Below, piece by piece: positions 38,324-46,625 of a stretch of DNA of 46,625 nt. The position numbers were made by a program, and so were the translations under genes. Origin of the DNA: an uncultured Rhodobiaceae bacterium (lineage in GTDB: Bacteria; Pseudomonadota; Alphaproteobacteria; Parvibaculales; Parvibaculaceae); contig CAJXOU010000017.1 in assembly GCA_913057645.1 (NCBI GenBank), positions 1-46,625 of the forward strand, given 5' to 3'. Numbering within the stretch: position 1 is the stretch's first letter; every line of letters begins with the position of its first letter. Under the pieces are notes generated by a model. That model saw only the letters and a program-made list of their open reading frames with translations, did no database searches and was not told where the DNA came from.

Positions 38324-39388
38324 ATGTCCACGGATCACCTCAGCGCTCTCCAGCCCGACAGTTCGCGCCCGGCGCGGACGAGCGCGGAAAACCACCGCGC
38401 GGCGCTCGCCATTGCGCGCCGCCACATGGGACATGTCGCCTGGCCCACCGTTTTCGTGTCGCTCGGCTCGCTTGCCGGGCTTGCCGTCTCGAGTGCGGCG
38501 GCGCTTGCCGGGCTCTGGCCCATGTGGGTGGCGATGCTCGTCAATGGCTACCTGCTGCTGATGCAGTTCATGGCGGTCCATGACGGCATTCACGAAGCGA
38601 TCTCGGGCGACAACCGGCGCTACAAGTGGCTGAACGATCTTCTCGCCTGGATCGGCGGCATCGCGACGCTCATTCCCTATCGCGGCTATGACGTGATGCA
38701 TCTCGTGCATCACCGCTACACCAATGATTTCGAGCGCGATCCGGACACCTGGTGCGCCGGGCGGAACCCGCTCGTGCTCATCGTCCGTTTCTTCACGCAG
38801 ACGCCGCATTACGTCTGGGTGATGACGCGGATGGGGATGTGGCGCGACAGGGCGCGCCGGCGCGAATATTTCATCGCGGGCGCCCATCACCTTACCGCCT
38901 GGACGCTGGTCGCTGTCGGGTTCGTCTATGGCTGGGGCTGGGAGATCCTGATGCTCTGGATATTCCCGACCTTCCTCAACGTTGCGCTGATCGGGCTGGT
39001 CTTCAACTACCTGCCGCACCGGCCGCATCTCTCGCAGGAGCGCTACAAGGATTCCGGCGTCTTCCTGCTGCCGCGCGCCATTCACCGGCTGGTGAGCGTG
39101 CTCGACATGTATCAGACCTACCACCTGATCCATCACCTCTTCCCGCGCATCCCGTTCTACCGGATCGGCGCCGCCTTCCATGAAATGCGGCCGGTGCTCG
39201 AGGCGGAAGGGGCAACGATCCATGACTGGACCCATGCCTGGGACAGGAAACCGGCAAGGGCGGCGGCGGCGTCCGCGACGGGTGTTGCGCCCGCCGCGCG
39301 GGCTGCCCGGACGGGCGCCGCGGCGAAGACGGTCGCAACGGTTGCAGGCGAAAGCAGTCGCCCGGAACGTCGCGCGAACACGAACTGA
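38324..39388 (+). CDS. Membrane fatty acid desaturase/hydroxylase family protein
   Basis: A 354-residue membrane di-iron enzyme. Three histidine boxes are intact: HDGIH (86-90), HLVHH (126-130) and HLIHH (268-272), with LPHRPH at about 232-236 as a likely extra ligand. Hydrophobic segments lie at about 40-85, 105-118 and 190-232. Such enzymes introduce a double bond or hydroxyl group into fatty acyl chains or carotenoids; the pattern does not separate these. The Ala/Arg-rich tail (about 303-354) is low in complexity. Its last 40 bases, including the stop codon, are repeated at 43447-43486 beyond the mobile island, showing that the insertion happened at this gene end. Confidence 0.85.
   Translation: MSTDHLSALQPDSSRPARTSAENHRAALAIARRHMGHVAWPTVFVSLGSLAGLAVSSAAALAGLWPMWVAMLVNGYLLLMQFMAVHDGIHEAISGDNRRYKWLNDLLAWIGGIATLIPYRGYDVMHLVHHRYTNDFERDPDTWCAGRNPLVLIVRFFTQTPHYVWVMTRMGMWRDRARRREYFIAGAHHLTAWTLVAVGFVYGWGWEILMLWIFPTFLNVALIGLVFNYLPHRPHLSQERYKDSGVFLLPRAIHRLVSVLDMYQTYHLIHHLFPRIPFYRIGAAFHEMRPVLEAEGATIHDWTHAWDRKPARAAAASATGVAPAARAARTGAAAKTVATVAGESSRPERRANTN
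39349..39388 (+). repeat. 40-bp direct repeat, left copy (3-prime end of desaturase gene)
   Basis: The last 40 bases of the desaturase gene, ending in its TGA, recur without a mismatch at 43447-43486. The first 13 bases (CGAAAGCAGTCGC) also occur at 40580-40592, directly before the left end of the intact transposon. The sequence preceding this copy is desaturase coding sequence, so this is the resident copy. Confidence 0.95.
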
Positions 39389-39413
39389 TAAAGTCTTTAT
39401 CGGATCAGGCCGG

Positions 39414-39476
39414 AACCTTCGGAAGCAGCCGCACCTGATGTTCGACCTTCTTTTGCAGGCTTTTCCTCGCCCTTGA
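39414..39476 (+). pseudogene. Transposase C-terminal fragment (IS1595 family)
   Basis: Translates as N-L-RKQPHLMFDLLLQAFPRP and stop, against RKQPHLMFDMLLAAFPRP at the end of the intact transposase at 40652-41509. Only these 20 codons survive. Codon differences from the intact copy show it is a relative, not a recent duplicate. Confidence 0.85.
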
Positions 39477-39582
39477 TCATCATGGACAGGAGAAAGTCGA
39501 AACGGGAAACGACATTTACCTGTTTCCTTCCTGGCCTAACGGCTGACAATGACACCCTGGAAGTTTGGGGTGGGGATTGGGA

Positions 39583-40473
39583 ATGGGTAGGGGCTACAAG
39601 GTCGCAGCGATTGCGCTTGGGGTATGCATAGCGTTCATTCTGGCGCTCGGGTTGGTCGTGTCTTTGTGGCAGTGGCCCGCCAATCAATCTACCTATCAGC
39701 AAGCCCAGCAGGAGCAGGCCGACGGCCCCCAAGATGACAATGGGACCAGCGTAGGGATGGGTTTTTGGGACACCTACGCTTGGCCTAGAGATTCTCTCAC
39801 ACAGTGGATCATGGCGGCCCTTGCCGTTGCCGCCACAGGCGTAAGCATTTGGGCTGTGTTGCTCTTGAAGGCTACCTTGAAGGCGACACGTGACGCACTT
39901 CTCGACACCCGTGCCATGACCGAGGCGGCCCTTGAGGCCAACGACATTTTGCGCGCTGAGCAAAGGGCGTGGCTCACAATCACCCTGACTTCGGTTGCCG
40001 AAACGGGAAACGACAGAAACAAGATCGAGGCCCACGTCACCTACCGAATAGACAATCTCGGGAAAGCGCCAAGCCTCGTTGCAAGGGAATACATTGGCAT
40101 CTTCCCGTTGATTGGTGAGGCAAATGTCGCTGAAGACCTGGAGAGGTTTGCCTTGAAGTGCAGGGAGAACTTTGAAACCGAAGAAAACAGGTTTGAAAGA
40201 CGCATTTTCCCCGGCCACCCCTTCGAAGGGCCCATCTACAACGCAAGACCTGTAGATGCTGACGTGGCCAGAAGTGACCCATCCGGCTTTTACATTTTTT
40301 GCTGCATCGTTTACCGGCACTCTCCAGACAACAGTATTGGGTGCACCGCTGAGGCCTATGTTGCAGGGAGGAGCAACAGCATCCTTTCTTGGCTGCACAA
40401 CTCCTTGGGCAACTACCCTACAAGGAATGTTCGCACCCAGTTCGCCAGCACTACCTTCAGCTATATGACCTAA
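39583..40473 (+). CDS. Two-helix membrane protein, transposon passenger, function unknown
   Basis: A 296-residue protein that I cannot assign. It has an N-terminal helix (VAAIALGVCIAFILALGLVV, about 7-26), a polar segment, a second helix (IMAALAVAATGVSIWAVLLL, about 73-92), a coiled-coil stretch (KATRDALLDTRAMTEAALEA) ending in RAEQRAWLTITL, and a C-terminal beta-rich domain with several Cys. The two-helix hairpin, coiled coil and RAWL-type motif form a plan common in proteins found near IS elements in alphaproteobacteria. The ATG at 39583 is preferred to a TTG 18 bases upstream. It lies inside the older IS remnant, downstream of its transposase fragment, so it is read as passenger DNA. Confidence 0.65.
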   Translation: MGRGYKVAAIALGVCIAFILALGLVVSLWQWPANQSTYQQAQQEQADGPQDDNGTSVGMGFWDTYAWPRDSLTQWIMAALAVAATGVSIWAVLLLKATLKATRDALLDTRAMTEAALEANDILRAEQRAWLTITLTSVAETGNDRNKIEAHVTYRIDNLGKAPSLVAREYIGIFPLIGEANVAEDLERFALKCRENFETEENRFERRIFPGHPFEGPIYNARPVDADVARSDPSGFYIFCCIVYRHSPDNSIGCTAEAYVAGRSNSILSWLHNSLGNYPTRNVRTQFASTTFSYMT

Positions 40474-40579
40474 CAGCACCGCCAGTAGGGCCACCGCCGC
40501 AAGACCGCTCACCTAGCACCCCTTTCGGGGAGGGCGCTACTTCCCGGCTTTGCGTCCCCATGTTTCAAGGGGATATATG

Positions 40580-40592
40580 CGAAAGCAGTCGC
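40580..40592 (+). repeat. 13-bp target repeat, left of intact transposon
   Basis: CGAAAGCAGTCGC abuts the left end of the intact element at 40593 and recurs at 43447-43459, one base beyond its right end, and at 39349-39361 in the desaturase gene. It behaves as a target-site duplication of 13-14 bases, longer than the 8 bases usual for this family. Confidence 0.75.
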
Positions 40593-40620
40593 AGTGTTCC
40601 CCTTGAAGTACGTAAGGGCT
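40593..40620 (+). repeat. Left terminal inverted repeat
   Basis: Starts AGTGTTCCCC and includes TTGA and TACGTA blocks that recur, inverted, at 43418-43445. It lies 31 bases upstream of the transposase start codon. Confidence 0.85.
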
Positions 40621-40651
40621 GAGGCTATATTAAGTCCATAGGAGGTGCCCT

Positions 40652-41509
40652 ATGGCCAAGTTCGGTATTCAACAGTTCTTCAAGCGGTTTCCCGATGACG
40701 ACGCCTGTCTCGACCATCTCATGAAGGTCCGGTACGGCGAGGTTCTGGACTGCCCGAAGTGCGGCAAGCGGGGCAAGTTCTCCCGGCTCTCCAAGGTGCT
40801 GGCTTACTCCTGCCCCTCATGCGGGCATCATATCCACCCGATGGAAGGCACGATCTTTGAGCGGTCGCATACGCCCTTGCAGAAGTGGTTTTACGCCCTG
40901 TTCCTGTTCACCACGACGCGCCACGGGGTTTCCTCCCGTGAGTTGCAGCGTCAGCTTGGTGTCACCCTCAAGACGGCATGGCGCATCGGACACGAAATCC
41001 GTAAGTACATGGCAGAAGTGGACGGCGACGATCTCTTGGGCGGCAAGCGCGTTGTGGAGGCCGACAAGGCTTTCATCGGCGGCAAGGACAAGCGCGGCAA
41101 AGACGACAAGACGGTCGTACTCGGCATCGTGGAGCGCAACGGCGACGTAGTGGCCCGCGCCATCCCCTCGAAAGAAGCCCGCTTCGTCATTCCCCGGATC
41201 ATGGCCCATGTGAAGCCCGGTTCGCGGATCGCTACCGACGAGGCCATGTCCTTCAAGCCGCTCATCGCGGAAGGCTTCCGGCATGGCACGGTTGCCCATC
41301 GCACCAAGGAATACGTTCGCGGCGACGTTCACACCAACAACATCGAAGCCTTCTGGGCGATCCTCAAGCGGGGCATTTCAGGCTGTCATATCTGGGTATC
41401 GCCCCAGCACCTTCCGAAGTACCTTGGCGAGTTCGAGTTCCGCTTCAACATGCGGAAACAGCCCCACCTCATGTTCGACATGTTGCTTGCTGCGTTCCCG
41501 AGACCGTAA
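40652..41509 (+). CDS. IS1595-family (ISXO2-like) transposase
   Basis: A complete 285-residue transposase. An N-terminal zinc ribbon has Cys34, Cys37, Cys54 and Cys57 (CPKCGKRG and CPSCGHH), and a helix-turn-helix like segment follows (SSRELQRQLGVTLKTAWRIG). The catalytic domain has Asp138 (VEADKAFIGG), Asp196 (IATDEA) and the Asn230/Lys239 pair (NNIEAFWAILKRG), the D-D-N-K pattern of the IS1595 family. The end is RKQPHLMFDMLLAAFPRP. It has an excellent ribosome site (AGGAGGT 7 bases before ATG). No frameshift is seen, so the element may still be active. Confidence 0.95.
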   Translation: MAKFGIQQFFKRFPDDDACLDHLMKVRYGEVLDCPKCGKRGKFSRLSKVLAYSCPSCGHHIHPMEGTIFERSHTPLQKWFYALFLFTTTRHGVSSRELQRQLGVTLKTAWRIGHEIRKYMAEVDGDDLLGGKRVVEADKAFIGGKDKRGKDDKTVVLGIVERNGDVVARAIPSKEARFVIPRIMAHVKPGSRIATDEAMSFKPLIAEGFRHGTVAHRTKEYVRGDVHTNNIEAFWAILKRGISGCHIWVSPQHLPKYLGEFEFRFNMRKQPHLMFDMLLAAFPRP

Positions 41510-41527
41510 CAACAATAGGCGGACAAG

Positions 41528-41803
41528 ATGGAAAACAGTGGCGGAAATCTCCGCGATTCCGAAATCGCACTCATGGACGCTATCAAGACTATCGCTGAAA
41601 TCATCATGACGGCCGGAATAGCCAAGCCAGCAATTTTTGACCGAATGTTCGCGGCTCAACGAGATGGTTATCTAGCCAAACAGATGCCAAACGCTGCCGG
41701 GGTAGTTGAGACGTTGAGACTGTTTTGCGTTGATCCTTCGCGAGAAGCACACCGACAACAACTAAACCAGATTCTAGGAAGTCCGCCTCAGGGCGAAGCC
41801 TGA
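41528..41803 (+). CDS. Small passenger protein, function unknown
   Basis: A 91-residue predicted cytoplasmic, mainly helical protein (SEIALMDAIKTIAEIIMTAG, then IFDRMFAAQRDGYLAKQMPN). It starts 18 bases after the transposase stop in the same direction and probably shares its transcript. It has no recognised domain. Given its length and position it could be a transposition accessory factor or an unrelated cargo gene; nothing in the sequence decides. Confidence 0.5.
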   Translation: MENSGGNLRDSEIALMDAIKTIAEIIMTAGIAKPAIFDRMFAAQRDGYLAKQMPNAAGVVETLRLFCVDPSREAHRQQLNQILGSPPQGEA

Positions 41804-41938
41804 GGTCAACTAACGGGGGATCGACGCATCTATTGTCGCGCATGAATCAGCAAGGGCACCTCTCCGGTGTCCTTCTCCCTTTCTGCAATTCCAGTTTCTC
41901 GCTCTCGACTCTTTCCCGGCCCGGCGCAAGATGCGCTC

Positions 41939-42232
41939 ATGTCCAAACGCCCTTGGGAACCTGCACCGCCCCGCCCGACGCTGAAACAAATCAGCGAGGC
42001 TCCCGGCTGGTTCCGCGTCTACTGCAATGAGATTGGATGCGGTCACAAAGCCGCGCTCCCTATGGCCCCGTTTGTTATCCGATGGGGACCGGAGACGCCT
42101 AGCGACGTTCTCAGGCGCTCGCTCAAGTGTACGAAGTGCGGCAAGAAGAGCGCGTCTATCCAGCGTCCCGGCTTTATCGGCACAAGCGGACTTAACGAGC
42201 CCTTCCCGGTCGACTGGTTGCCGAAGGAATAG
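41939..42232 (+). CDS. Small zinc-ribbon-like passenger protein
   Basis: A 97-residue protein with two cysteine pairs, CNEIGCGH (about 29-36) and CTKCGKK (about 64-70), spaced like a zinc ribbon. It has Trp and Pro rich flanks (WEPAPPRPTLKQISEAPGWF). The likely role is binding nucleic acid or protein, but no known family is evident to me. The ATG at 41939 gives a compact protein; an ATG at 41867 would add 24 residues of less ordered sequence. Its stop codon touches that of the convergent 51-residue gene. Confidence 0.55.
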   Translation: MSKRPWEPAPPRPTLKQISEAPGWFRVYCNEIGCGHKAALPMAPFVIRWGPETPSDVLRRSLKCTKCGKKSASIQRPGFIGTSGLNEPFPVDWLPKE

Positions 42233-42388
42233 CTACTTGCCCGGCTTCTGTGGGTTGTCGCGCGCAATATCTTTCAAGAGCGCGTCGAACTTTTTCTCGT
42301 CGCCTTCGGCCTCATGCTCTTTCGCAAACTGATCCAGCTTGCCGAGTTTTCGGGCTTCTTCAAGGGAGAGGTGTTTACCGCGTGACAT
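42233..42388 (-). CDS. 51-residue passenger protein, charged and helical
   Basis: A short frame, MSRGKHLSLEEARKLGKLDQ and then FAKEHEAEGDEKKFDALLKD, ending NPQKPGK. It is strongly charged and predicted to be helical. I recall similar short proteins beginning with RGxHLSLEEARK in other alphaproteobacterial genomes, without a known function. It starts 4 bases after the stop of the larger minus-strand passenger gene, so the two form an operon; its stop codon abuts that of the zinc-ribbon gene. Confidence 0.6.
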   Translation of the reverse strand: MSRGKHLSLEEARKLGKLDQFAKEHEAEGDEKKFDALLKDIARDNPQKPGK

Positions 42389-42392
42389 AGCT

Positions 42393-43403
42393 CTACTGAC
42401 ACCTGTTCTCTGCTAACCACTTCGCCGCCGCCGAACGCTCAATATGCAAATCGCGATACCGCTTTCCGGCTCCCCAGTTGGCAAGTGCCGGGTTGTAGCT
42501 GCGCATTTGCATGTTCTCGACTCCCGCGAGCATGCCTAGATATTCGATTTCAAAGTCTCGCCAATGATCGGCGGGGATGGGCTCTCGCGGCTGCTTTGCC
42601 AAAAGTTCAGCGGCGTTGGAGACTTCTGGGCGTCCCCATAGTTGAACCCAATTATTTCTAGCAGACTCCCGCAGGCGGTCTTTCAGATCGATCCACCTTT
42701 TATCATTCCGGTCCTCCGGCCAACCTGTAGTCACGGCCATATCATAGAACGTCAGGAACGGTATCAAATCCGGTGCCGATGTTCGCGCGCCCTCGCCAAT
42801 CTCTCTAATTTTGGCCTCTAGATCACTGCGCCGTATGTGCAAGTTCCGATAAGTGGGCTTTTTGTCAGACAGAAATTGGAATGATTTTCCGCCCCCAACT
42901 GCATCGCCCTCTTTCTTGATACTCAGTGGAATCTCGATAATTTTCTCAGATGGTGGGCGGCTCCCGAATAGGGGGATACTTTCGTCGTAGACGATAGAGT
43001 TGATGTAGTGGCGCAGAAGGGAGTCGCCGGGCTCCTCTCCATTATCGGCGTCGGAGCGATCTAGACGATCCGCGAGCTTCGCCTCAAACCCCGTTCTGGT
43101 CTGCTCATAGAGAGCGATTGCCGCCTCCGGCAGTGGGATAAGATCGTCTCTGTTTTCTTGTTTAGGCGTTACGTGTGGTGGTTTGTTTGTCGACGGCTTC
43201 CGAAAATATTCCCAGACCAGAAGCCCGACATATCCTGCGGTAATGAGCACTGCCGCTGCCAGCAACCCCATCCCGATACCTGGCGAGATGTTTGGAAACG
43301 CAGCCTGTGTGCCGATCAGGACTAAATCCATAACCAGCACCCCAATGTGAGTGTGCATACCTGTGCGCATTCCCATACCCTCCGATTCCTTATCGGCGAG
43401 CAT
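42393..43403 (-). CDS. Membrane-anchored passenger protein, function unknown
   Basis: A 336-residue protein with two N-terminal hydrophobic segments (about 17-35, GVLVMDLVLIGTQAAF; and about 45-66, GLLAAAVLITAGYVGLLVWE), then a hydrophilic domain to the end with many Trp and Arg (TGWPEDRNDKRWIDLKDRLR, RESARNNWVQLWGRPEV). No family recognised. Like the passenger of the older element at 39583-40473 it is a two-helix anchor plus cytoplasmic domain, though the sequences are not obviously alike. Its start lies only 15 bases inside the right inverted repeat, so its promoter must overlap the transposon end or lie in the flanking DNA. The exact start is uncertain. Confidence 0.6.
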   Translation of the reverse strand: MLADKESEGMGMRTGMHTHIGVLVMDLVLIGTQAAFPNISPGIGMGLLAAAVLITAGYVGLLVWEYFRKPSTNKPPHVTPKQENRDDLIPLPEAAIALYEQTRTGFEAKLADRLDRSDADNGEEPGDSLLRHYINSIVYDESIPLFGSRPPSEKIIEIPLSIKKEGDAVGGGKSFQFLSDKKPTYRNLHIRRSDLEAKIREIGEGARTSAPDLIPFLTFYDMAVTTGWPEDRNDKRWIDLKDRLRESARNNWVQLWGRPEVSNAAELLAKQPREPIPADHWRDFEIEYLGMLAGVENMQMRSYNPALANWGAGKRYRDLHIERSAAAKWLAENRCQ

Positions 43404-43417
43404 ACATCATCGGGGTT

Positions 43418-43445
43418 TTGACCTACGTATGTCAAAGGGAACACT
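43418..43445 (-). repeat. Right terminal inverted repeat
   Basis: Reverse complement begins AGTGTTCCCTTTGACATACG and pairs with the left repeat at 40593-40620 (20 of 24 outer bases). Confidence 0.85.
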
Positions 43446-43446
43446 C

Positions 43447-43486
43447 CGAAAGCAGTCGCCCGGAACGTCGCGCGAACACGAACTGA
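43447..43486 (+). repeat. 40-bp direct repeat, right copy
   Basis: Identical to 39349-39388, the end of the desaturase gene including its stop codon. It starts one base after the right end of the intact transposon. The bases that follow (ATTCCCCTTTG) are presumably the original sequence downstream of the desaturase, leading into the recA promoter. Confidence 0.95.
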
Positions 43487-43530
43487 ATTCCCCTTTGTTT
43501 TCAGTAGTTTGAATTTTTCATTGCCAAGGA

Positions 43531-43545
43531 GAACAAAATAAGTAC
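43531..43545 (+). promoter_or_regulatory. LexA-like SOS box of recA
   Basis: GAACAAAATAAGTAC fits the alphaproteobacterial SOS operator GAAC-N7-GAAC (the inverse of GTTC-N7-GTTC) with one mismatch. It lies 64 bases upstream of the recA ATG and within 90 bases of the transposon end. LexA repression of recA is expected from the family; the site is an inference from the match. Confidence 0.55.
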
Positions 43546-43608
43546 ATTGATCGTCATGAACAGCGCGTTGCGCGACTCGGGCGGCGATGAAATAAGGGGA
43601 AATCACCC

Positions 43609-44706
43609 ATGTCCAAGAATGTTGTGAATCTCGTGGCCAAAGACGATACGGACAAGAAAAAGGCGCTGGACGCCGCGCTCAGCCAGATCGAGCGTTCGTT
43701 CGGCAAGGGTTCCATCATGCGGCTCGGCAAGAACGAGCAGGTGGTGGAGATCGAATCCATTTCGACGGGCTCGCTCGGGCTCGACATCGCGCTCGGCATT
43801 GGCGGGCTGCCCCGCGGCCGCGTGATCGAGATCTACGGGCCGGAATCTTCGGGCAAGACGACGCTCGCCCTCCAGACCATTGCCGAAGCCCAGAAGAAGG
43901 GCGGCATCTGCGGCTTCGTCGACGCGGAACATGCGCTTGACCCGATCTATGCCCGCAAGCTCGGCGTGACGCTCGACGAACTTCTGATTTCCCAGCCCGA
44001 CACCGGCGAACAGGCGCTCGAAATCGCCGACACGCTGGTGCGCTCGGGCGCGGTCGATATTCTCGTCATCGACTCGGTGGCGGCGCTGACGCCGAAGGCC
44101 GAACTTGAAGGCGAGATGGGCGACAGCCTGCCGGGCCTTCAGGCCCGCCTCATGAGCCAGGCGCTCCGCAAGCTCACCGCCTCGATTTCGAAGTCGAACA
44201 CGATGGTGATCTTCATCAACCAGATCCGCATGAAGATCGGCGTGATGTTCGGCAGCCCGGAAACGACGACGGGCGGCAATGCCCTCAAGTTCTACGCCTC
44301 CGTCCGCCTCGATATCCGCCGCATCGGCGCGATCAAGGACCGCGACGAGGTGGTCGGCAACCAGACCCGCGTGAAGGTGGTGAAGAACAAGGTCGCGCCG
44401 CCTTTCAAGCAGGTCGAGTTCGACATCATGTATGGCGAGGGCATTTCCAAGATGGGCGAGCTTGTCGATCTCGGCGTCAAGGCCGGCATCGTCGAGAAGT
44501 CCGGGTCCTGGTTCTCCTACAGCAGCCAGCGCATCGGGCAGGGCCGCGAAAACGCCAAGCAGTTCCTCAGGGACAATCCCGACATGGCCGCCGAAATCGA
44601 AGCCGCCATCCGCGAGAATGCGGGCCTCATCGCCGAGAAGATCATGGACATCTCGAGCAGCGAGACGGAAGAGGACGAAGGCGGCGACATGGAAGCGAGC
44701 GCCTGA
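43609..44706 (+). CDS. recA: Recombinase RecA
   Basis: RecA, 365 residues, coats single-stranded DNA, drives homologous recombination and triggers LexA cleavage. Walker A is GPESSGKTT (about 79-87) in the conserved [15 protein letters not shown]. Other landmarks are [30 protein letters not shown] and the loop [20 protein letters not shown]. The acidic C-terminal tail ([16 protein letters not shown]) is typical. An AAGGGGA ribosome site precedes the ATG. The gene is intact although the island ends 160 bases upstream. Confidence 0.98.
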
Positions 44707-44755
44707 CGGCCTGAAGACAATTTCTCTGGCTCCGGTCTTTCGGCCGGGCATGAGA

Positions 44756-44791
44756 CGGCGCCGGGTACCCTCCGGCGCCGTTTTCGTTTTT
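44756..44791 (+). terminator. Rho-independent terminator of recA
   Basis: A 9-bp stem (44756-44764 with 44772-44780, CGGCGCCGG/CCGGCGCCG) with a 7-base loop is followed by TTTTCGTTTTT, 50 bases after the recA stop codon. A smaller hairpin (44732-44746) lies just before it. The rest up to 44997 has no recognised element. Confidence 0.88.
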
Positions 44792-44997
44792 GAGCGGCGG
44801 ACAGAAACCCTGTCCGGCCAGGCCGCGTTTCCTGTTCCCTCTCCGGGCCGGCCTCGTTTCAGGCCCGGCTTCCCTTTCTGGACAGGGGATGGGGCGACAG
44901 GTAAAAGCTGACACCCTATATTTGTTAATGAAACCCGGCGGATAGGGGCTCGCGGAGCCTTTCCCGCCTTCTGTGAACGAGCGGAAGCGCAAGCGAC

Positions 44998-46625
44998 ATG
45001 GACGGCCTCAACGAGATCCGACGCAAGTATCTGGACTTCTTCCGCGCGCAGGGCCACGAGGTCGTGCCGTCGGGCCCGCTCGTCCCGAACAACGACCCGA
45101 CGCTGCTCTTCACCAATGCCGGCATGGTGCCGTTCAAGAACGTCTTCACCGGTCAGGAGACGCGGCCCTATGTCCGCGCGGCGAGTTCGCAGAAATGCGT
45201 GCGCGCGGGCGGCAAGCATAACGACCTCGACAATGTCGGCTACACGGCGCGGCATCACACCTTCTTCGAGATGCTCGGCAATTTCTCCTTCGGCGACTAC
45301 TACAAGGACGAGGCGATCAGGTTTGCCTGGGACCTGATCACGAAGGAATTCGCCCTCCCCGAAAGCCGCCTCCTGGTCACGATCTACGAGGATGACGACG
45401 AGGCGCACGGGCTCTGGAAGAAGATTGCCGGACTTTCCGACGACAGGATCATCCGTCTCGGCGCCAAATCGAATTTCTGGCAGATGGGCGACACCGGCCC
45501 CTGCGGTCCCAATTCCGAAATCTTCTACGATCACGGCGACAGGATCCCCGGCGGCCCGCCCGGCAGCCCGGACGAGGACGGCGACCGTTTCATCGAGATC
45601 TGGAATCTCGTCTTCATGCAGTACGAACAGCATGAGGACGGTTCGCGCACGCGCCTGCCGAAGCCCTCGATCGATACCGGCATGGGGCTCGAGCGCATGG
45701 CGGCCGTCATGCAGGGCACCTACGACAATTATGCGACCGACCTGATGCGCTCGCTGATCGTCGCTTCCGCCGAGGCGTCGAAGAGCGACCCCGACGGGTC
45801 CCACGCGGTCAGCCATCGCGTCATCGCCGACCATCTGCGTTCGTCCTCCTTCCTGATCGCGGACGGCGTGATGCCGTCCAACGAAGGCCGCGGCTACGTG
45901 CTTCGCCGGATCATGCGCCGCGCCATGCGCCATGCGCAGCTTGTCGGCGTCAGCGAGCCGCTCATGTACCGGCTCGTGCCGGCGCTTGTCCGGCAGATGG
46001 GCGAGGCCTATCCGGAGCTTCGCCGCGCCGAGGCGCTCGTCACCGAAACGCTGAAGCTGGAAGAAACGCGCTTCCGCGAAACGCTGACGCGCGGCCTCAA
46101 GCTTCTCGACGAGGAAGTCGAGAAACAGCAGGGCAAGGGCGTGCTGCCGGGCGAAGTCGCCTTCAAGCTCTACGATACCTACGGCTTCCCGCTCGATCTG
46201 ACGCAGGATGCGTTGCGTGCCCGCGGCATGAGCGTCGACCAGACGGGGTTCGACGCCGCGATGGCGAAGCAGCGCCAGGATGCGCGCGCGGCCTGGGCGG
46301 GCTCGGGCGAAAAGGCGACCGAGGCCGTCTGGTTCGAACTGCGCGACAAGGTCGGCGCCACCGAATTTCTCGGCTACGAGACGGAGGTCGCCGAGGGCAA
46401 GATCGTCGCGCTTCTCGTCGACGGTGCGCCGGTCGACACGGTCGAGGCGGGCACGGAAGCGGCCATCGTCACCAACCAGACGCCGTTCTACGGCGAGAGC
46501 GGCGGCCAGATCGGCGATACCGGCCTCATCCTCTCCGCGGCCGGTGCGGAATTCCCCGTGATCGATCCGGTGAAGAGGCTCGGCGACATGCATGTCCTTA
46601 TCGTCAAGCTCGACGCCGGGGCGCT
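44998..46625 (+). CDS. alaS: Alanyl-tRNA synthetase AlaS, N-terminal part (runs off window)
   Basis: AlaS charges tRNA-Ala. About 542 residues of an expected 880 or so are in the window. Landmarks in order: [60 protein letters not shown] (class II motif), [29 protein letters not shown] (motif 3), [20 protein letters not shown], and the start of the editing region ([15 protein letters not shown]). The order recA-alaS is common in alphaproteobacteria. No truncation is seen other than the window edge. Confidence 0.97.

Follow-up and report, generated by a model that had tools for sequence, protein, structure and literature searches.

Tn7 inserts at attTn7 at a fixed spacing beside a conserved gene that stays intact, and it has a dedicated target selector protein; members of the IS1595 family of insertion sequences, for their part, reportedly carry passenger genes. 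TnGBS, ISLre2 and some ISKra4 elements, all with Mutator-like DDE transposases, are reported to insert 15-17 bp upstream of sigma-A promoters (PMC3942029), and ISApl4, of the IS1016 subgroup of the IS1595 family, is flanked by 8-bp direct repeats that are preferably A/T-rich (PMC12561309). Here we analyze a stretch of 46,625 nucleotides from an uncultured Rhodobiaceae bacterium (contig CAJXOU010000017.1, hereafter the window), in which two IS1595-family elements lie between a fatty acid desaturase gene and recA, and we argue that an alphaproteobacterial clade of this family very probably prefers to insert beside the LexA operators of the SOS response, with its 8-bp target duplication 6 bp (at some sites 7 or 8 bp) before the operator box.

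As with Tn7, insertion in this clade adjoins a conserved gene at a fixed spacing without destroying it; no target selector like that of Tn7 was recognized among the five passenger open reading frames (ORFs) of the window scanned with Pfam and NCBIfam. The window element shares with the IS1595 family a DDE transposase domain, a zinc ribbon, short inverted repeats and passenger genes, and with ISApl4 the 8-bp direct repeats, but the part of the ISApl4 report consulted describes no operator target, whereas the clade considered here prefers LexA-type boxes at a fixed spacing (PMC12561309). The tip-to-box distance of 14-16 bp recalls the fixed distance to a regulatory site kept by TnGBS, ISLre2 and ISKra4; these elements differ in having a transposase of another family and in using the -35 region of a promoter as landmark rather than the GAAC-N7-GAAC of a repressor operator, and the insertions of TnGBS and ISLre2 are oriented, whereas our elements point either way. 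No description of LexA-box targeting by transposons was found in the literature searched, with subscription papers and ISfinder notes mostly outside its scope.

Element ends and the length of the target duplication

By the features tested, the window elements belong to the IS1595 family. The transposase of the intact element matches the ISXO2-like DDE domain (PF12762, 116.7 bits, cut-off 27), the model NF033547 (183.8 bits, cut-off 75) and an N-terminal zinc ribbon (PF12760, 38.4 bits, cut-off 25.4), with no Mutator-type transposase among the Pfam and NCBIfam matches listed; its residues D138, D196 and E232, invariant both in five and in 16 aligned transposases, probably form the conserved acidic triad, and the inverted terminal repeats and 8-bp duplication characteristic of the family are present. 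The older element survives as a remnant, 97% identical in DNA over 88 bp to an element carried by a different genome of the same genus (G008). Related elements stand upstream of recA in G008, there in the orientation opposite to that in the window, and in G022, with transposases 65% and 67% identical, respectively.

The initial annotation had described two related elements stacked at a 13-base target, CGAAAGCAGTCGC, with a duplication of 13-14 bp. The word does occur at 39349, 40580 and 43447, its only three occurrences in the whole draft genome (3.75 Mb in 193 contigs), and its first and last copies do form part of a longer identity of 40 bases (39349-39388 and 43447-43486) that closes with the desaturase stop codon. 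The duplicated host DNA nevertheless amounts to 38 bp and not 40 (39351-39388 and 43449-43486), because the CG preceding AAAGCAGT in the right copy belongs to the intact element, as its right tip; the bases by which the 13-base match exceeds 8, CG and CGC, derive on one side from an element tip and on the other from the chromosome. The target duplication itself is 8 bp long (AAAGCAGT, at window positions 39351, 40582 and 43449), and the longer figure has to be given up. This length comes from a comparison of ten elements, two from the genome of the window and the others from seven genomes of the genus or class: symmetric tips 8 nt outside a conserved TCCC, together with an exact 8-bp duplication, fit eight of the ten, and in five of these eight the 8-bp solution is the sole 8-mer match, the two elements without an exact 8-bp duplication being L068 and L069. 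Plain 8-bp duplications around related elements, which had been named beforehand as speaking against a 13-14-bp target, are thus found in eight of the ten, that of the window included. G008 and G022 have 8-bp targets whose words differ from that of the window. The right tip of the older element (...GGGGATATATGCG), which equals the tip in G008, ends at 40581 and abuts AAAGCAGT. The part of the annotation in which two related elements used the same target in succession is supported. At one further element (G004; L071, 5617-5630), the left-tip bases CGCAAT coincide with the chromosomal bases just past the opposite target copy.

Operator boxes, transposase clade and neighboring genes

A perfect GAAC-N7-GAAC box lies exactly 6 bp from the duplication in the window, in G008, in G022 and, at another locus, in G003. 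The LexA box of Caulobacter reads GTTC-N7-GTTC (PMC9578287, Table 1; PMC12700426), and by this consensus the boxes are putative LexA operators; E. coli-type boxes (CTG-N10-CAG) were absent within 40 bp in 57 loci. The expectation of a box at 6 bp had been noted from four loci (the window, L095, which is on the same contig as the copy of G022, L098 and L105) prior to a scan of a genome collection with five aligned transposases, which returned 79 loci, kin of the four discovery loci included. Two of the 79 had no room on their contig, and in the other 77 the ends were fixed by a script blind to the box, which called the ends confidently, with a perfect 8-bp duplication, in 57; the remaining 20 were dropped. 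Adding the window, four elements from the genus or class, and nine more that a search of 385 genomes had contributed, gives 71 sites; this search had yielded 20 loci, 11 of which were not added (already represented, no good ends, or judgement, as for L233, whose best ends have no TCCC-type tip, and L237, with 7/8 bases). Of the 21 loci from viral contigs, the script score left 13 without confident ends.

Perfect boxes stand at offset 6 in ten of the 71 sites, at offset 7 in four and at offset 8 in one, i.e. 15 observed versus 0.013 expected given the density of boxes across these loci, and six more sites have a one-mismatch box within offsets 6-8, all of them at offset 6. Boxes of the same polarity at the other 38 offsets (0 to 40, both flanks) number two perfect and six with one mismatch. 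When the four discovery loci are removed, 11 perfect boxes, six of them at offset 6, and six one-mismatch boxes are left among 67 sites. Offset 6 was predicted beforehand; offsets 7 and 8 (five sites) were accepted after the data had been seen. The side of the direct-repeat operator is fixed, the duplication coming before GAAC-N7-GAAC, and the orientation of the element is free, with the box on the transposase side in 9/21 and on the other side in 12/21. Spacer and duplication are nearly unconserved over 18 sites (at most 0.5 bit), in a profile whose GAAC positions are conserved through the selection of its rows.

In a tree of 89 transposases (L102, L153, L159 and L163 not included), one 28-row clade (support 100/94) holds all 21 box sites, together with four sites lacking a box and three rows lacking called ends; the 61 rows outside comprise 46 sites, none with a box at 6-8 bp, and 15 rows lacking called ends. 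A perfect box at offsets 6-8 is present in 15 of the 25 clade sites with script-fixed ends. L111 and L100, to which the script had given no call, were read by hand: the former has a perfect box at 6 (left end only, the right end lying past the contig) and the latter carries AAACACCA at either end, with a box at 6 that has one mismatch, which brings the clade to 23 of 27 sites with a box. The orders of four other genomes, each represented by only 2 to 4 genomes, yielded no new clade member, nor did a plasmid search, in which two distant members were found (47.6 and 49.3% identical). Eight residues, D152 and V179 among them, occur in at least 85% of the clade and in at most 35% of the transposases outside it, and are candidates only. 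Among the ORFs of 21 clade elements there is no shared passenger that could select targets for the clade; a widely shared small ORF was considered in this role and rejected, being found outside the clade as well and partly antisense to the transposase end in many elements. This ORF, of 50-75 aa, recurs across elements (window 42233-42388, minus strand; L064 942-1130; L099, L101, L096 and others), lies tail to tail with the transposase or downstream of it, and has no Pfam family in the two cases tested.

The gene on the box side is recA at 14 sites (the window, L095, L096, L098, L100, L101, L103, L108, L111, L112, L120, L137, L221 and L226) and lexA at four (L129, L131, L132 and L139), that is, at 18 of the 23 box sites. 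Family models confirm eight of these eighteen calls (the window, the G022 copy, L129, L139, L108, L101, L103 and L100), and the remaining ones were made by tblastn with the RecA of the window or the LexA of L129. Elsewhere, the element of L105 splits the box from a YifB-like ORF that starts on the non-box side and whose piece is incomplete and under the model cut-off; L099 has PlsY on the box side and DprA opposite, L097 has MnmA on the non-box side, and in L110 and L115 the box-side neighbor is not clear. Outside the clade, flanks of up to 1.6 kb at 46 sites contain recA once (L166) and lexA once (L169). Three sphingomonad elements outside the clade, L166, L169 and L161, have recA (L166), lexA (L169) or a GTTC-N7-GTTC with another spacing nearby.

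Several observations weigh against the proposed preference. No box is present in four of the 27 clade sites (L067, L117, L128 and L225), nor in two viral-contig loci assigned to the clade by best BLAST match (L242 and L245), with which the count becomes 23/29; the box is therefore a preference rather than a rule. A single mismatch is present in seven of the 23 boxes, perfect boxes of opposite polarity lie within 40 bp at four sites outside the clade (L166, L071, L161 and L169), two outside sites (L147 and L072) have two-mismatch boxes at offset 6, so that the counts may overstate the sharpness of the clade border. Some sites are perhaps non-independent, e.g. L129 and L131, one locus in two Methylocystis genomes. 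Finally, targeting does not account for the broken left junction of the older element, to which we return below.

Tandem insertion and its competing explanations

In the scenario that we favor, the old element would have entered AAAGCAGT next to the recA operator, inside the 3' end of the desaturase gene; the spacing would still have marked the box-side copy of AAAGCAGT, and a second, related element would have entered the same 8 bp, displacing the old one outward. The same target would have been used twice because both elements measured from the same operator, given that an insertion measured from the box re-offers the box-adjacent 8-bp copy after every insertion. Two other loci, both at recA (L137 and L221), consist of a box, an intact element, one 8-bp copy and a tip belonging to a further element, and neither locus yielded a second transposase; in L124 and L102 two tips flank 8 bp (read by eye, with the box side left unassigned). 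L166 was flagged as a tandem pair by the same test and discarded, its TCCC belonging to the box and not to a tip.

Ends, 8-bp duplications, boxes, spacing, clade, neighbor genes and tandem pairs can all be read directly from the DNA; the mechanism behind them is inferred. LexA protein on the operator, rather than the DNA letters alone, probably guides the transposase. In one reading, bound LexA would itself be the landing mark on which the transposase docks in order to insert 6-8 bp plus the 8-bp duplication away, the element would thereby home to the SOS regulon, mainly to recA and lexA, and removal of LexA upon DNA damage could alter the targeting. We regard the chances of this reading as even. 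It is also conceivable, at what we would judge a somewhat lower than even probability, that the transposase or another element protein reads GAAC-N7-GAAC directly and that LexA is uninvolved; DNA is the only kind of evidence that exists, other clades adjoin other repeated motifs, which suggests that target choice can be built into the transposase, and the eight clade-typical residues would fit such a reader. However, it is the letters of the LexA operator that are matched, with the 7-base gap and the spacer almost free, and variant boxes occur at the same spacing, at recA in L103 (GAAC-N7-GCAC) and in L110 (GAAC-N7-GTAC), all of which argues against direct reading.

We consider unlikely the account given in the initial annotation, namely a sequence-specific duplication of 13-14 bp at the 13-base target and the subsequent removal of the left part of the old element through recombination with a chromosome bearing the empty site. 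Apart from the 13-base identity, this account has in its favor the empty site that it proposed to look for in close relatives, which is present in G024 (desaturase protein 95% identical) with the segment in single copy: the window blocks 1416-39388 and 43447-46611 are collinear with G024 and share a segment that G024 has once. The symmetric 8-bp solution in eight of ten elements, the window among them, and the targets of G008 and G022, which differ in word yet keep the box spacing, stand against it. In eight relatives of the genus (L005, L006, L007, L008, L010, L012, L013 and L014) no element separates the desaturase gene from the recA that follows it, and the box, as read by eye, is kept in eight empty desaturase-recA loci.

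Under operator-measured insertion, too, the left part of the old element would have been lost and the desaturase end re-created via an empty-site copy, a step that we propose less surely than the insertions themselves. Recombination or break repair with such a copy would re-create the 38 bp but leaves a 25-base filler unexplained, as an empty-site donor should read ATTCCCC after the stop codon where the window has the filler instead. The first 21 bases of the filler (up to three mismatches) match only the window genome among 41 genomes, its first 20 bases have no exact match in the genome-contig collection, and in all study loci (up to five mismatches) it has no match outside the window. The filler and the stop codon before it make up a near-palindrome (CTGATAAAG / CTTTATCggATCAG), and the region would fold as single-stranded DNA into a weak hairpin (z -1.5) that was not used for any inference. 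An exact-pattern scan of 385 genomes for tandem inverted-repeat junctions gave matches in three, the arms being 24 bases apart in the window genome and 31 and 33 in the other two. No shift in divergence at the desaturase gene, a sign of foreign recombination, was seen relative to G024. The left junction may also be an assembly error in the 193-contig draft.

That there is no special targeting at all, the vicinity of recA and lexA being favored or tolerated as an open active promoter or a safe intergenic place, we hold to be very improbable. The 14 recA and four lexA neighbors, with the operator staying with its gene in all 18, are what such tolerance would leave behind, but the exact 6-8 bp spacing and the single polarity are not; moreover, boxes that are not at recA or lexA are also used (L097, L099 and L105), in L105 the element even parts the box from the YifB-like ORF, and outside the clade the 46 sites include only one recA and one lexA neighbor. 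Scarcely credible is an attachment site of a recombinase-bearing integrative element later invaded by insertion sequences, which the direct repeats of 38 bp, located at the 3' end of a gene and restoring its stop codon, might evoke, since the six ORFs scanned between the repeats include no recombinase except the IS1595 transposase and the old right tip abuts the 8-bp target exactly, like other insertions.

Window features and significance

The order in the window is desaturase gene, elements, recA, with the features listed in the table.

Features of the desaturase-recA interval (window positions)
Feature	Position	Strand	Basis or remark
Fatty acid desaturase gene	38324..39388	+	PF00487, E 5e-44; ORF; 3' end overlaps the upstream operator of recA
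Left copy of 38-bp host segment	39351..39388	+	AAAGCAGT target, spacer, LexA-type box, stop codon; equals 43449-43486
Left LexA-type box copy GAACGTCGCGCGAAC	39365..39379	+	Sequence match
25-base filler	39389..39413	.	Broken left junction of older element
Final 20 codons of older element's transposase	39414..39473	+	85% identity to residues 266-285 of intact transposase
Passenger ORF of older element, 302 aa	39565..40473	+	No Pfam/NCBIfam family above cut-off
Right inverted repeat and tip of older element (...CAAGGGGATATATGCG)	40556..40581	+	Tip ATATATGCG common to G008 element
8-bp target duplication AAAGCAGT, separating old tip from new element	40582..40589	+	End comparison
Younger intact IS1595-family element, 2859 bp	40590..43448	+	Tips CGCAGTGTTCCCC and CGGAGTGTTCCC
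IS1595-family transposase, 285 aa	40652..41509	+	ORF, Pfam, NCBIfam
Passenger ORFs of younger element, 91 aa and 121 aa	41528-41803, 41867-42232	+	No family match
Small ORF, 51 aa, related to ORFs of many other elements	42233..42388	-	ORF comparison
Passenger ORF of younger element, 336 aa	42393..43403	-	No Pfam/NCBIfam family above cut-off
Right 8-bp duplication copy AAAGCAGT	43449..43456	+	End comparison
recA LexA-type box GAACGTCGCGCGAAC, beginning 6 bp past duplication	43463..43477	+	Sequence match
Second box, variant GAACAAAATAAGTAC, closer to recA	43531..43545	+	Sequence match
recA	43609..44706	+	TIGR02012, 579 bits

Other elements of the survey show features of their own. Five outside the clade, with inverted repeats of the TATAAAC/TATAACC type (L109, L119, L122, L144 and L232), lie at sites with TGTC-ACA-like repeats, e.g. 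AAATGTCTACATTTGTCTACATT, possibly another operator-like target, and three gammaproteobacterial insertions (L127, L145 and L146) directly adjoin the common word GYCTGSTTCTTGCT. The two copies of G001 (L067 and L068) have identical tips and a transposase match limited to residues 1-253, the C-terminal part lying about 400 bp downstream, with no adjacent box within 150 bp.

If the preference for SOS operators holds true, a group of transposons would address itself by means of a host repressor operator, and would do so next to the master genes of the response to DNA damage. This would provide a simple and testable system of protein- or operator-guided insertion and would account for the repeated and tandem insertions at recA; it would also raise the question of whether DNA damage, by removing LexA, switches the targeting.

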